DNA from: Dinghuibacter silviterrae
Lineage (GTDB): Bacteria; Bacteroidota; Bacteroidia; Chitinophagales; Chitinophagaceae
NCBI RefSeq assembly: GCF_004366355.1
Contig: NZ_SODV01000001.1
Coordinates: 1,798,001 to 1,862,000, forward strand
Reading direction: 5' to 3'
DNA length: 64,000 bases
Shown here: positions 39,882 through 46,175 of the stretch, piece after piece
Layout: every line of letters starts with the position of its first letter
Position numbering within the stretch: the first letter of the stretch is position 1
The notes under the pieces: model-generated
Databases searched by the model: none
What the model was told of the DNA's origin: nothing
The model's input: only the letters and a program-made list of their open reading frames with translations
Translations under genes and position numbers: made by a program

Positions 39882-40460
39882 ATGCAAAAAGACGTCATTC
39901 TCCAGATCAGCAACAAGATCAAGGAAAAACGCAAGGAACGCCACATCACCATCCAGGAGCTTGCAGACAAAGCGGGGGTTACCAAGGGTTTTATTTCCCA
40001 GATCGAGAACAACCGGACCGTCCCTTCCCTCACGGTGTTGCTGAGCATCATCCGCTCCCTGAACATCGATCTGAATGCCTTTTTTGACGAGCTGCAAGGG
40101 GAAAACGGGGAAGAGGATAAGGTGGTGGTCCGCAAAAAGCAGGATTACCAGGAGTTTCAAAAGGAAAACGCCCGCGGGTTCGTCTACCAGCGCATCATGG
40201 CCACCCACGTCCAGGACCGGCACATCGACATTGTCCTGCTCCGGTTGCAAAAAAATTCCCGGCGGGCCCCCGTTCGTACGGACGCCTTCGAATACAAATA
40301 CGTCATCTCCGGGGAAGTGGAGTATACTATAGGCGACAAAAAATACATGCTCGGACCTGGTGACTCCATCTACTTCGATGCCCGGGAACCCCACAACCCC
40401 AAAAATGTGGGGGAGGACGATGCCCTCATGCTCGTCGTCTACTTTTTCATGGAGAAATAA
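39882..40460 (+). CDS. XRE-type regulator with cupin domain
   Basis: 192 residues. Residues 10-70 are an XRE helix-turn-helix (IQELADKAGVTKGFISQIEN with the recognition helix FISQIENNRT), residues 110-190 a cupin (YKYVISGEVEYTIGDKKYML and PGDSIYFDAREPHNPKNVG). Such regulators bind small metabolites in the cupin and often control adjacent catabolic genes. The next gene, PhnX-like hydrolase, is on the same strand 46 bp away with its own -7 box, so the regulator probably controls the phosphonate cluster. Confidence 0.9.
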   Translation: MQKDVILQISNKIKEKRKERHITIQELADKAGVTKGFISQIENNRTVPSLTVLLSIIRSLNIDLNAFFDELQGENGEEDKVVVRKKQDYQEFQKENARGFVYQRIMATHVQDRHIDIVLLRLQKNSRRAPVRTDAFEYKYVISGEVEYTIGDKKYMLGPGDSIYFDAREPHNPKNVGEDDALMLVVYFFMEK

Positions 40461-40494
40461 CATCTTTTTAAGGTCCAAAAGTTTAATTATACTA

Positions 40495-40502
40495 TACATT
40501 TG
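40495..40502 (+). promoter_or_regulatory. -7 box TACATTTG of the phosphonatase-like gene
   Basis: Exact TAnnTTTG ending 4 bp before the ATG at 40507. A TTTA at 40467-40470 lies 24 bp upstream. Transcription would start at or next to the start codon. Confidence 0.62.
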
Positions 40503-40506
40503 TGCC

Positions 40507-41202
40507 ATGAATAAGGTACAATTGGTCGTATTCGATATTGCCGGTACCACGGTGCTGGACGGGGGAAATGTCGCCATTGCTTTTGCCCAGGCTATGGGGG
40601 AGCATGGGTATACCATCGCCAAAGAAGAAGTAAACCCCCTGATGGGGTATAAAAAGCCGGTGGCCATTCGTATGCTGTTGGACAAATACGAACCCAACCC
40701 CGCGAAGATCAGCGAGGGGCTCATCCATTCGATCCACGACCGTTTTGTGGAGCTGATGATCAACTATTACAAAACCGGCCAGGGTGTCGAACCCCTGCCG
40801 GGTGTGGACAGGGTCTTCTCCTACCTGAAAGAAAAGGGTGTCAAAATCGGCCTGGATACGGGTTTTTCAAAAGACATCGCCACCGCGATCGTCGACCGTC
40901 TGGGGTGGGAAAAGGAAGGCAAAGTCGACTATATTGTTGCGAGCGACGAGGTTCCCTCCGGGCGTCCCGCACCCTTTATGATCCAAAAGATGATGGACGA
41001 GGCCGGTATTTCGGACCCCCGTCAAGTCGTCAAGATCGGGGATACCGAGGTGGACATCAACGAAGGGCTCAACGCGGGTTGTTTGTTCTCCATAGGGGTG
41101 ACCACGGGTGCCTTTACCCGGGAGGAGTTGCGGAAATACCACCCGACCCATATCATCGACCACATGGAGGAACTCATCCCTATCCTCGAAAGCGTCAATT
41201 AA
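40507..41202 (+). CDS. PhnX-like phosphonatase-type HAD hydrolase
   Basis: 231 residues. ATG 40507 is chosen; the track frame to 40360 runs through the regulator gene. Motif I is FDIAGTT: the DxAGT pattern with nucleophile Asp10 and Ala12 in place of the usual second Asp, seen in phosphonoacetaldehyde hydrolase. A Lys in the MGYKKPVAIR segment (Lys49 or Lys50) is in the place of the Schiff-base lysine, and the late motif has Arg instead of Lys (SGRPAP). This is the combination I recall for the PhnX-like family TIGR03351, which is found beside FAD oxidoreductases rather than PhnW. It should cleave a 2-oxoethylphosphonate-type substrate. Confidence 0.85.
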   Translation: MNKVQLVVFDIAGTTVLDGGNVAIAFAQAMGEHGYTIAKEEVNPLMGYKKPVAIRMLLDKYEPNPAKISEGLIHSIHDRFVELMINYYKTGQGVEPLPGVDRVFSYLKEKGVKIGLDTGFSKDIATAIVDRLGWEKEGKVDYIVASDEVPSGRPAPFMIQKMMDEAGISDPRQVVKIGDTEVDINEGLNAGCLFSIGVTTGAFTREELRKYHPTHIIDHMEELIPILESVN

Positions 41203-41206
41203 GTTT

Positions 41207-42364
41207 ATGCCTGATAAACATGACCTCCTCGTCGTTGGCGCCGGGGTACTGGGTACGTTTCATGCTTTTCATGCCTTGAGGCGGGGCTTGTCGGTGACCC
41301 TCCTGGAAAAAGACCGCTACCCGGTACAGGCCACCGTCCGCAATTTTGGCCAGGTGGTCCCGAGCGGGATGGCCGGCCGCTGGTTCGACTACGGCCGCCG
41401 CAGCCTCGAATGGTACCGGTTTATCCAGGAACGCGCGGACATTACCGTACGCCCCGGCGGGACGGTGTATATCGCGTCGGACCCGGAGGAACAACAGCTC
41501 TTACACGAGCTGCACGAGGTCATGACCGGCCGCGCGTATCCCGTTTCGATGCTGAGCCCCGCGGCCTGCCTGGAACGCTGGCCCGCGCTGCAAGCCGGGT
41601 ATTGCCGGGAAGGGCTTTTTTTCCCCGAAGAAGTCAGCGTGGCACCGGAAGCCATGATCTACCGGCTGCTCGATTTTATGCAGGAGTCGTTCCCCAGGTT
41701 TACGTACCGTACGCTGACCACCGCAGTGGACTGCCGGCCCAGCGGGGACGGGGTCGCCGTGGTAACGAACGCGGGGGAAACGATCTTTGCCGCTAAAGCA
41801 ATTGTGTGCAACGGCGGAGAATTTAAGCTGCTGTTCCCACAGTTGTTTGAGCGCAGTGGCATCGTGGTCAGCAAACTCCAGATGATGCGGACCAGGCCCA
41901 TGCCTTCGGTAGCGCTTCACGGCAACGTCCTGACGGGTCTGACGATCCGCCGCTACGAATCTTTTGAACAATGTCCTTCTTTTGCCGGGCTCTCCGTGCC
42001 GGAACACCTCCGGGAGCTCAAACAATGGGGGATTCATATCCTTTTCAAACAGGCGGACGACGGCAGCATCATCATCGGTGACTCGCACGAGTATGCGGGG
42101 GCCATGGAGGCGGACGACCTGGGTTTTTCCATCAACAGCCACATCAACGAGCTGATGCTCCGCGAGGCGTCCCGGATCGTTTCGTTTGACGTCCGCAACC
42201 TGGACCGGGTATGGGCGGGCTTTTATCCGCAGCACAAGGAACGGGACATCGTCGAGGAGGACCTGGAGGGGTGTATCCATATCCGGACCGCCATAGGCGG
42301 GAAGGGGATGACGTCGGCGGCGGGGTACGCCGAAGAAAGTATTACCGCGTTGTTCGGGCGCTAG
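41207..42364 (+). CDS. FAD-dependent oxidoreductase of the TIGR03364 type
   Basis: 385 residues, DadA/glycine oxidase-like flavoprotein with the FAD loop VVGAGVLGTFHAFHALRRG and LLEKD. It is 4 bp behind the phosphonatase-like gene. Members of this family (TIGR03364, also described as PbfD-like) are proposed to oxidise N-methylated or hydroxylated 2-aminoethylphosphonate to phosphonoacetaldehyde, feeding the hydrolase. That assignment is recalled, not measured here. The C-terminus overlaps the convergent DUF5690 gene by 4 bp. Confidence 0.87.
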   Translation: MPDKHDLLVVGAGVLGTFHAFHALRRGLSVTLLEKDRYPVQATVRNFGQVVPSGMAGRWFDYGRRSLEWYRFIQERADITVRPGGTVYIASDPEEQQLLHELHEVMTGRAYPVSMLSPAACLERWPALQAGYCREGLFFPEEVSVAPEAMIYRLLDFMQESFPRFTYRTLTTAVDCRPSGDGVAVVTNAGETIFAAKAIVCNGGEFKLLFPQLFERSGIVVSKLQMMRTRPMPSVALHGNVLTGLTIRRYESFEQCPSFAGLSVPEHLRELKQWGIHILFKQADDGSIIIGDSHEYAGAMEADDLGFSINSHINELMLREASRIVSFDVRNLDRVWAGFYPQHKERDIVEEDLEGCIHIRTAIGGKGMTSAAGYAEESITALFGR

Positions 42365-43677
42365 GCCGCTGCCAGGCCCCCGGCGGGTTGGGGCGGCGCC
42401 TCGCCGCGCATCTTCTGCGTGAAGTAGCGATAAGACAACCCGATGCACCCGAGCCCGATGATCGCCACCACGGTCAGCGACCACGTGAAGAACGACCCCC
42501 AGCTAAGGGCGTGTTTCCCAAACTCTTTATACAACAGCACCCCCACGCTCCCGGCGTAGCCGATGGAGTCGGCGGCATAGATCAGGAAACCGATGTTCCC
42601 CTTGATCCGGAATACCGCGATCAGGCGTTCGAAGAAAATGACCTGGTAGGGGATGTAGGCGAGGTATAGGCCGAAGGCCGCAAAGTACATCAGGACAAAG
42701 GGCGTGATGGCATGGATATAGAAGAGGTAGGAACCCGCCCCGATCGACAGGAAGCCCAGCACGATCAGCAGGTGCGAGAGCCGGAAGGCCTGGCGGTTGC
42801 TCCGGATATAGACCAGGGCGCCCACGCACAAAAGAACGGCGATGGACACGGGGGTGTCGATCTGGGCATAGACGGAGGGCGCCACCGGGTGACCATACAA
42901 TCCCTGCCATATTTCGACCTCGAAATTATCCCGGAGGTCCCGCATGGCGGTCAGGGTGATGTACAACCCCAGGTTGAACAGGAACCCGGGCCAAAAGCTC
43001 CGGAGAAATGCCCTCCTGTCCTCGGCAAACATCTGGGTTCTTTCGGAGCGGGCGGCTTTGTCCTCCGGGGTGGGCTCGGGGGTGACGCTCAGCAAAGCCA
43101 CGAAAACGAGCATCGGCACAAAAAAGACCGCCCCTACGGCAAACGGCATCCAATGCTCGGGCATGTGCCAGTCCACCACCATCATCCGGCCGATCCCTTT
43201 GACGACCCCGGCCGAAAAGATCAGGGATGCGCTGAGGATTGTCGCCATGATTTCGGTGGCCCTCCGGCCTTCCAGGTAGCTGTACACAAGCCCCCAGATC
43301 AACCCCAGCGGGAGACCGTTGGCAAACATACAAACGATGCCCCAGGGCGCGGGGACCAAGGCGAGCCCCAAGAGACAAAACCAGGCAAAACTCAGCAACC
43401 CGATGATATAAACGGGACGTTTTTCGGGGCGGACCTCGGAAATAAATTTGATCCCGATGAACTTGCTCGTGGCATATCCTAAAACCTGGGCAATGACGAG
43501 CAGGACCTTGTAGTCCATCCCCCAGAAGACCTGCCCCTCAAAGGTGGCGGCGGCAAAACTTTTCCGGAAACTATAGGTGCAGACGTAGATGCAAAAAGCC
43601 GATATACTGCTGAGCAGCAACACCGTCAGCGGCGAAGCCTGCTGCATCTTCCGGCGGAGGATTTCGTGGGGGCGCAT
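42361..43677 (-). CDS. DUF5690 MFS-type membrane transporter
   Basis: 438 residues, about 12 spans in a major-facilitator fold. The opening LTVLLLSSISAFCIYVCTYSFRKSFAAATF and the later FGLYLAYIPYQVIFFERLIA match my memory of DUF5690, a Bacteroidota family of uncharacterised transporters. It faces the FAD oxidoreductase with 4 bp overlap. With no PhnCDE or other phosphonate importer in sight, a role in importing the substrate of the adjacent phosphonate enzymes is a reasonable guess. A TACCTTTA box (7 of 8) lies at 43681-43688. Confidence 0.85.
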   Translation of the reverse strand: MRPHEILRRKMQQASPLTVLLLSSISAFCIYVCTYSFRKSFAAATFEGQVFWGMDYKVLLVIAQVLGYATSKFIGIKFISEVRPEKRPVYIIGLLSFAWFCLLGLALVPAPWGIVCMFANGLPLGLIWGLVYSYLEGRRATEIMATILSASLIFSAGVVKGIGRMMVVDWHMPEHWMPFAVGAVFFVPMLVFVALLSVTPEPTPEDKAARSERTQMFAEDRRAFLRSFWPGFLFNLGLYITLTAMRDLRDNFEVEIWQGLYGHPVAPSVYAQIDTPVSIAVLLCVGALVYIRSNRQAFRLSHLLIVLGFLSIGAGSYLFYIHAITPFVLMYFAAFGLYLAYIPYQVIFFERLIAVFRIKGNIGFLIYAADSIGYAGSVGVLLYKEFGKHALSWGSFFTWSLTVVAIIGLGCIGLSYRYFTQKMRGEAPPQPAGGLAAA

Positions 43678-43982: not shown

Positions 43983-46175
43983 CTAGCGCAGGAACAGCAT
44001 TTCGCGGTATTTCGGCAATTCCCACAACCGGTCGTCCACGATCATTTCCAGCTTGTCGACGTGGTAGCGGATCTCGTCAAAAAAGGGCTTTACCTTGTCG
44101 CAGTAGGCGATGGCGCGGGCACGGCTTTCGGCGATGGCGTTGGCTTCCTTGCGGGCTTCGGTCATTTCCTCGACCTTGGCGCGCACCACATTGATGTGCT
44201 CGGAGATTTCTTTCAGTACTTCCAGCTGCGCCTTGTAGGTGGACTCGGGGAGCCCGATTTCCTTCAGGCCTTTGATGTTCTGGATCAGCGTATTTTGATA
44301 GGTAAAGGCCGTGGGGAGGATGTGGTTGGTGGCCAGGTCCCCGATGACGCGGCCTTCGATCTGTACTTTTTTGATATAGTCTTCCAGGGCGATCTCGTGA
44401 CGCGCTTCAAGCTCCAGGTGGTTGTACACGTGGTGGGTCTCGAAAAGGTGTTTGGCCTTAGACGTGATAAAGGCGTCGAGGGCCAGGGGCGTGGTCTTTA
44501 CGTTGGGCAGACCGCGGCGATGGGCTTCTTTTTCCCACTCTTCGCTGTAACCATCGCCTTCAAAAAGCACTTTTTTGGCCGACACGATGTATTGCTGGAT
44601 GACCTGCATGATGGCCACCTCTTTTTTCTCGCCTTTTTCGATGAGGGCGTCGACTTCCTTTTTAAAATGCGCCAGGGTGTCGGCCATGATGGTGTTGAGC
44701 GTAATCATGGCATTGGCACAGTTGGCGGAGGAACCCACGGCGCGGAACTCGAACTTGTTACCGGTGAAGGCAAAAGGAGAGGTCCGGTTGCGGTCGGTGT
44801 TGTCCAGAAGCAGTTCGGGGATCGTCTTGTGGATGTCGAGCTTGAGCATGATCTCGTCCTGCTCGCTGAACTTTTTGCCCACCCGGCTTTCTACCTCGGT
44901 CAGGACTTCGGTGAGGTACTTCCCGATAAAGATAGAGATGATGGCGGGCGGTGCTTCGTTAGCACCCAGGCGGTGGTCGTTGCCGGCCGACGCAATGGCC
45001 GCGCGCATGAGGTCGGCGTGGTCATGAACCGCCTTGATCGTGTTGACGAAAAAGGTCAGGAACATGAGGTTGGTCTTCGGCGTTTTGCCGGGCGCCAGGA
45101 GGTTGACACCGGTGTCGGTGGCCATGCTCCAGTTGTTGTGCTTGCCCGAACCGTTGATCCCGGCAAAGGGTTTTTCGTGGAGCAGCACGACCAGGCCGTG
45201 CCGGTTGGCGACGCGGCTCATGACGTCCATCATCAGGATGTTGTGGTCGACGGCCAGGTTGACTTCCTCGAAGATAGGGGCGCATTCGAACTGGGAGGGG
45301 GCCACTTCGTTGTGACGGGTGCGCAGGGGAACCCCCAGCTTGTAGCACTCGGTTTCGAAGTCACGCATAAATGAATAGGCGCGTTCGGGGATGGACCCGA
45401 AATAGTGGTCTTCCAACTGCTGACCCTTGGCGGGGGCGTGCCCAAACACAGTGCGTCCGGTCATCGTCAGGTCGGGCCGGGCGTTGGCCAGGGCCGCGTC
45501 GATGAGGAAGTATTCCTGCTCCCAGCCGAGGGTGGCGGTCACCTTGGTGACGTTGCGGTCGAAGTAGTTGCAGACTTCCACGGCGGAGCGGTTCAGGGCG
45601 TCCAGGGCTTTCAGCAGGGGCGCCTTATAGTCCAGGGACTCCCCGGTATAGGAGACGAAAATCGTCGGGATACAAAGGGTTCTGCCTTCCCCGGTTTCGA
45701 TGACAAAGGCGGGGGAGGAAGGGTCCCAGGCGGTATAGCCGCGGGCTTCGAAGGTGGCGCGCAGACCGCCGGAGGGGAAAGAGGAGGCATCCGGCTCCTG
45801 CTGGATGAGGGCGGCGCCGTCAAATTCTTCCAGGGCGGAGCCGTCGCTTTTCAGCGTGAAAAAGGAATCGTGTTTTTCGGCCGTCGCCCCGGTCAGGGGT
45901 TGGAACCAGTGCGTAAAGTGCGTGACCCCTTTGGATTCGGCCCATTGACGAAGACCCGCTGCGATCTGGTTGGCCATGTTCCGGTCGATCCTCTTACCGC
46001 TCTTGATGGAAGCGGCCAGACTCTTATACCCTTCGTCGCTCAGGAACTCCCTGGCGGTCTTGAGGGTAAATACATTTTCATTGAAAATGGCAGTAATCTT
46101 CGAGGAAGAGGGTGCGTTACCCTCCACCCGGTCAGCAGTGAGCTTGTCGATAGCTTTGAATCGTAAAGAGGACAT
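43983..46175 (-). CDS. glnN: Glutamine synthetase type III
   Basis: 730 residues, the length of type III glutamine synthetase of Bacteroidota (type I is about 470). It makes glutamine from glutamate and ammonia with ATP. Characteristic segments: LGWEQEYFLID (metal-binding Glu), RTRHNEVAPSQFECAPIFEE and INGSGKHNNWSMATDTGVN (metal and ammonium site), and a long C-terminal extension of helices (about 600-730) special to this type. A TTCTTTTG box lies at 46195-46202, with ATTG 21 bp upstream, as a near-consensus promoter. A terminator follows the gene at 43928. Confidence 0.95.
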   Translation of the reverse strand: MSSLRFKAIDKLTADRVEGNAPSSSKITAIFNENVFTLKTAREFLSDEGYKSLAASIKSGKRIDRNMANQIAAGLRQWAESKGVTHFTHWFQPLTGATAEKHDSFFTLKSDGSALEEFDGAALIQQEPDASSFPSGGLRATFEARGYTAWDPSSPAFVIETGEGRTLCIPTIFVSYTGESLDYKAPLLKALDALNRSAVEVCNYFDRNVTKVTATLGWEQEYFLIDAALANARPDLTMTGRTVFGHAPAKGQQLEDHYFGSIPERAYSFMRDFETECYKLGVPLRTRHNEVAPSQFECAPIFEEVNLAVDHNILMMDVMSRVANRHGLVVLLHEKPFAGINGSGKHNNWSMATDTGVNLLAPGKTPKTNLMFLTFFVNTIKAVHDHADLMRAAIASAGNDHRLGANEAPPAIISIFIGKYLTEVLTEVESRVGKKFSEQDEIMLKLDIHKTIPELLLDNTDRNRTSPFAFTGNKFEFRAVGSSANCANAMITLNTIMADTLAHFKKEVDALIEKGEKKEVAIMQVIQQYIVSAKKVLFEGDGYSEEWEKEAHRRGLPNVKTTPLALDAFITSKAKHLFETHHVYNHLELEARHEIALEDYIKKVQIEGRVIGDLATNHILPTAFTYQNTLIQNIKGLKEIGLPESTYKAQLEVLKEISEHINVVRAKVEEMTEARKEANAIAESRARAIAYCDKVKPFFDEIRYHVDKLEMIVDDRLWELPKYREMLFLR

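Follow-up and report, generated by a model that had tools for sequence, protein, structure and literature searches.

A DUF5690 membrane protein, very probably a phosphonate importer, beside predicted aminoethylphosphonate degradation genes of Dinghuibacter silviterrae

The subject of this report is a four-gene module of Dinghuibacter silviterrae (Bacteroidota; Chitinophagaceae) and, in particular, its membrane protein of the domain family DUF5690 (PF18943). The module lies in a stretch of 64,000 nucleotides (contig NZ_SODV01000001.1, positions 1,798,001 to 1,862,000), here called the window, and coordinates without a prefix are counted from its first letter. An earlier note, made from these letters alone, had claimed that genes for an XRE-cupin regulator, a HAD hydrolase, a TIGR03364 oxidoreductase and a DUF5690 protein lie together in this region, and four intact open reading frames are indeed found there:

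39882..40460, + strand: XRE-family regulator with a C-terminal cupin domain, 192 residues (HTH_3 and Cupin_2 both over cut-off)
40507..41202, + strand: PhnX-like HAD hydrolase, 231 residues, ATG start (TIGR03351, 208.4 bits)
41207..42364, + strand: TIGR03364 (PbfD-type) amine oxidase dependent on flavin adenine dinucleotide (FAD), 385 residues (353.1 bits against an NCBIfam cut-off of 285.1; DAO fold, PF01266)
42361..43677, - strand: DUF5690 transporter with the 12-helix fold of the major facilitator superfamily (MFS), 438 residues (PF18943, 505.6 bits against a gathering cut-off of 25, whole model covered), the proposed phosphonate importer

The ATG of the TIGR03364 gene stands four nucleotides past the stop codon of the adjacent PhnX-type hydrolase gene, and its own stop codon is overlapped by four nucleotides by that of the DUF5690 gene, which it meets tail to tail. 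Relatives of the XRE-cupin protein recur beside DUF5690 or TIGR03364 genes at many loci, and this protein is presumably the regulator of the module.

The hydrolase falls just below the cut-off of TIGR03351 (218.9 bits) and reaches 131 bits with the PhnX model TIGR01422, whose cut-off is 220; for this reason we term it PhnX-like only. Its best matches in the PDB are phosphonoacetaldehyde hydrolases (E 4e-23). The motif I and the lysine which the earlier note had pointed out are both sound, since D10-x-A12 in FDIAGTT aligns with FDWAGTT of PhnX and K50 aligns with the Schiff-base lysine, a position that is occupied by arginine in the aligned chain 2ioh. The supposed replacement of a C-terminal lysine by arginine is, on the other hand, no deviation at all, as in the alignment this arginine falls on the GRP motif of PhnX of known structure.

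The same note had read these enzymes as a known oxidative route for derivatives of 2-aminoethylphosphonate (AEP) that dispenses with PhnW, and the published PbfD/PhnX clusters bear this out. In the sections of Zangelmi et al. (2023; PMC10590968) on which we draw, TIGR03364 enzymes are PbfD oxidases, the PbfD1 of A. baumannii being one of them; they convert N-methyl-AEP to phosphonoacetaldehyde, PbfD2 accepts AEP too, the reaction is proposed to be an oxidative deamination, PhnX then cleaves the phosphonoacetaldehyde, and clusters of PbfD and PhnX without PhnW are already described. Because no PhnW match above the cut-off occurs in the D. silviterrae genome (best score 42 bits), the enzyme part of the module is a further example of this known pathway, in a genome without PhnW. 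Like the clusters of those sections, it joins a FAD amine oxidase to a PhnX-type hydrolase and has no PhnW in cluster or genome; unlike them, it has the shorter, TIGR03351-like type of hydrolase and a DUF5690-type transporter, which those sections do not name. The oxidase is expected to convert AEP or N-methyl-AEP to phosphonoacetaldehyde, ammonia or methylamine, and hydrogen peroxide, and the hydrolase would then split phosphonoacetaldehyde into acetaldehyde and phosphate.

The earlier note had based its choice of an importer on the lack of PhnCDE, which is correct for the window but wrong for the genome. On the same contig, about 0.2 megabases away, there is a complete C-P lyase operon (G000:C1:2046000-2060000, locus L234) with phnGHIJKLM, phnC, phnD and two phnE genes, together with a second phnM-like amidohydrolase gene and a phosphoesterase gene; the names PhnG, H, I, J and PhnD are confirmed, and the others are given from sequence and gene order. 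The importer idea therefore needs evidence other than the absence of PhnCDE.

Such evidence comes from gene neighbourhood, co-occurrence and the residues of a predicted phosphate site, which together support the idea strongly, and on these comparisons of sequences the DUF5690 protein is very probably a phosphonate importer. For the co-occurrence, 295 genomes were drawn evenly from the class Bacteroidia, and the DUF5690 and TIGR03364 proteins over the cut-off were counted. DUF5690 is present in 42 of these genomes and TIGR03364 in 24. Every one of the 24 TIGR03364 genomes has DUF5690, against 18 of the 271 others (Fisher p 3e-24), and 16 of them have the two genes no more than about 11 kilobases (kb) apart, an arrangement expected in far fewer than one genome if the genes were placed at random (chance about 1e-21); p-values for co-occurrence of this kind are inflated by relatedness, but the genomes span many families.

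The earlier note had named DUF5690 genes lying mostly apart from these enzymes as a finding that would refute the idea, and the opposite was found. Profiles of those neighbours that recur were run against every reading frame around the DUF5690 genes, within a distance limit of 8 kb, and a phosphonate-catabolism gene was found at 32 of the 49 loci of the class sample. The commonest neighbours are PhnX-type hydrolases (23 loci), TIGR03364 (14) and the HD oxygenase TIGR03276 (13); PhnW (9), PbfC-like proteins (2) and HpnZ (2) are rarer. Among the 80 named loci whose DUF5690 proteins most resemble that of the window, a sample biased to the latter's own subfamily, 69 of the 81 DUF5690 copies have a phosphonate gene near. 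The phosphonate-linked copies are spread over the tree of the family, and the order and strand of the neighbouring genes vary.

Outside the Bacteroidota the family is rare, being present in five of 385 Alphaproteobacteria, centre genomes included, and in one of 274 Gammaproteobacteria, namely the centre genome itself. Its partners differ from one lineage to the next. In Dyella (L171, L172) the gene lies beside a C-P lyase operon with PhnF, PhnN, PhnI, PhnJ, PhnK and PhnM, in Novosphingobium (L184) beside TmpA and a TmpB-like oxygenase, and in two other Alphaproteobacteria (L247, L248) beside TIGR03364 and PhnX, the latter a true PhnX by TIGR01422 in L248. Within the Bacteroidota, Pedobacter cryoconitis (L118) has it beside TmpA and an HD oxygenase, assigned as such by our own profile. 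The common factor of these sites is the phosphonate substrate rather than any one enzyme. A further alphaproteobacterial copy (L249:7555-11862) lies between a metallophosphoesterase gene and genes for a DeoR regulator and a glycerophosphodiesterase, a glycerophosphodiester-like setting.

As a HMMER search of PDB sequences with a profile built from aligned DUF5690 proteins gave no match even at E 10, profile-profile and structure comparison were required. The AlphaFold2 model is a confident one, with a mean predicted local distance difference test score (pLDDT) of 93.9, and its top Foldseek matches are structures of human SLC37A4, a glucose-6-phosphate transporter of the GlpT/UhpT type, the first at E 8e-8. 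In the profile comparison DUF5690 meets the GlpT/UhpT/UhpC group at E 1e-4 (local) and 4e-7 (global), reversed controls lying at E 0.18-0.33. Anion:cation symporters (E 0.066) and DHA2 exporters (E 0.68) behaved like the reversed controls and were rejected as the nearest relatives, and an NCBIfam scan of the window protein returned no antiporter model (TIGR00881) at E 0.001. Judged by profiles and predicted structure, DUF5690 is distantly related to the organophosphate:phosphate antiporters GlpT, UhpT and SLC37A4, from which it has diverged. It shares with them the MFS fold, an RK pair in transmembrane helix 1, YxxxK in helix 2, an arginine in helix 7 and a tyrosine in helix 11; it differs in matching no curated antiporter model and in having invariant residues of its own (K57, Q64, E136, R138 and D370).

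The shared residues are those of the phosphate site. In the profile alignment the essentially invariant Y31, R38, Y68, K72, R246 and Y374 of DUF5690 fall on Y38, R45, Y76, K80, R269 and Y393 of GlpT, and the near-invariant Y35 and K39 fall on Y42 and K46. Sixteen aligned columns are conserved in both DUF5690 and the GlpT group, ten of them with an identical residue, and eight of these ten are the GlpT positions just named. Among 130 DUF5690 rows K72 and R246 are kept in all 130, R38 in 129 and K39 in 127, and the set Y31, R38, K39, Y68, K72 and R246 is retained throughout in 127-130 rows. R45 is the main substrate residue of GlpT, with K46, K80, R269, Y38 and Y76 contacting the substrate at stages of the transport cycle, and R45, K46, K80 and R269 touch the phosphate (PMC4598623); Y393 has a role in translocation (PMC2739438). 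The phosphate-site residues of SLC37A4 are R28, K29, Y60, K64 and K240 (PMC13411879), which by motif would correspond to the same site in DUF5690 and GlpT. This conservation points to the binding of a phosphate group, and since the binding residues of the antiporters have been kept, the same grip on the phosphonate group is to be expected.

A precedent is offered by AepP, a GlpT-related MFS permease that is needed for the use of AEP as a nitrogen source in P. putida BIRD-1 (Murphy et al. 2021; PMC8316502). It resembles DUF5690 in its kinship with GlpT, in its retained phosphate-binding residues and in being encoded beside AEP degradation genes. AepP, which we know from its description, is 28% identical to GlpT by BLAST (PMC8316502), whereas DUF5690 is a separate Pfam family that reaches no PDB chain by sequence profile.

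From all this we infer the substrate, the direction of transport, the coupling and the regulation of the module, and think it likely that the locus is a catabolic module for AEP and its N-methyl form with DUF5690 as the phosphonate carrier. The protein would carry the phosphonate over the inner membrane, gripping its head group where GlpT grips phosphate. Exchange for internal phosphate seems somewhat likelier than proton symport, because PbfD and PhnX together would release one phosphate for each phosphonate consumed, so that an exchange of product for substrate could drive itself. Such an antiport would supply nitrogen and carbon rather than net phosphorus, and the C-P lyase/PhnCDE system of the genome could cover the phosphorus supply.

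A number of observations weigh against a phosphonate importer. The DUF5690 gene of the window is convergent with the enzyme genes and not co-directional with them; an antiport would bring no net phosphorus; and transport, binding or growth data on a DUF5690 protein were found for no member of the family. Taken alone, the profile comparison ties DUF5690 to the antiporters weakly, and the VIA-align Z scores tie SLC37A4 (34.8) with the galactonate:proton symporter of E. coli (34.0), GlpT being at 28.5; since these values do not separate the antiporters from the symporter, the fold alone was not used as evidence of substrate. H165 and E299 of GlpT have no clear equivalent in DUF5690, where they face a gap and a position that varies, in a part where the alignment is unsure. 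Further, 17 of the 49 class-sample loci have no phosphonate enzyme nearby (a few of them on short contigs or at contig ends, where the neighbourhood test is blind), and seven of these have a PHP phosphatase only. Among the 17 is a second DUF5690 copy of the D. silviterrae genome (G000:C2:137193-138332; L062:9146-10420), which adjoins a nucleosidase-like gene and has no phosphonate gene near, yet keeps all of the phosphate-site residues. Hardly any member of a clade marked by the motif FGFRKSFTV (L064, L080, L084, L094, L189, L194, L197) is linked to phosphonate genes, and this clade may have a different substrate; the copy at L249 is accompanied by glycerophosphodiesterase and metallophosphoesterase genes. 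The unlinked loci mean that phosphonate transport is not necessary for every member, and the family may carry several organophosphorus compounds of which phosphonates are the commonest.

The strongest of the rival explanations is that the substrates of DUF5690 are phosphate esters (glycerol phosphate, for instance, or what secreted phosphodiesterases produce) or phosphate itself, its phosphonate neighbours reflecting a shared scavenging of phosphorus. The setting of the L249 copy fits such a carrier, as do the copies near PhoD-like or type I phosphodiesterases (neighbour clusters 40 and 12) and the seven loci where a HisJ-type PHP phosphatase is the only partner; the residues that match GlpT, moreover, bind the phosphate group and not the remainder of the ligand. 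Against this, the recurrent partners are phosphonate-specific enzymes of at least four pathways, and DUF5690 is present in every sampled TIGR03364 genome, although an ester carrier would have no reason to track PbfD or TmpA. We consider this explanation unlikely. More improbable still is an exporter of excess phosphate, or of another product, during the use of phosphonates as a nitrogen or carbon source: each phosphonate consumed frees one phosphate, and DUF5690 has the residues with which the antiporters bind phosphate, but the neighbour families include no second recurrent transporter of the inner membrane, so that the importer would be missing, and the GlpT relative AepP works in uptake. 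That shared ancestry alone lies behind the association, DUF5690 being carried along in a gene block which related Bacteroidota have inherited, is very hard to credit, for although the samples are phylogenetically structured and near relatives do have blocks in common, the order, orientation and pathway type of the genes vary, the linked copies are spread over the tree, and the association turns up again in Alpha- and Gammaproteobacteria, there with other enzymes.

If DUF5690 is indeed a phosphonate importer, a domain of unknown function would become a transporter family with a name, a substrate that can be tested and a set of key residues, and it would supply the step of uptake that the PbfD/PhnX, PhnZ-type and TmpAB pathways of Bacteroidota have so far lacked. 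The proposal appears to have been described by nobody so far: no paper that mentions DUF5690 or PF18943 was found in the library of open-access papers that was searched, and the transporter passages of a 2023 review of phosphonate degradation (PMC10574752) mention no such family. The family would also provide a single metagenomic marker across several phosphonate pathways. A broader proposal is advanced tentatively, its chances being in our opinion somewhat below even: that DUF5690 proteins form a widespread and so far unrecognised family of carriers which exchange phosphonate for phosphate and which are, in many Bacteroidota, the principal way across the inner membrane for AEP-type phosphonates. 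They would serve pathways of the hydrolytic, HD oxygenase and TmpAB kinds and, in Dyella, C-P lyase, would be driven by the phosphate that these pathways release, and would supply phosphonates as a source of nitrogen and carbon. Such an exchange would suggest that the bacteria concerned may draw nitrogen from phosphonates and give off the phosphate.

Three neighbouring elements deserve mention in their own right. A gene for a type III glutamine synthetase (43983-46175, - strand) lies 305 bases upstream of the DUF5690 gene on the same strand and could assimilate the ammonia released; as a conserved partner of the module it was rejected, since none of the other loci tested has it beside DUF5690. 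In 15 of the 49 class-sample loci (L066, L069-L079, L081, L083, L086) the neighbour of DUF5690 is a gene for a HisJ-type PHP phosphatase, both within phosphonate clusters and alone; this phosphatase may have a part, so far unrecognised, in the use of phosphonates or phosphate esters. Finally, outer-membrane protein pairs of the SusC/SusD type are found repeatedly within about 8 kb of phosphonate clusters, often with the HD-domain oxygenase (L063, L066-L068, L076, L082, L120-L155 and others), which suggests a matching uptake step at the outer membrane.

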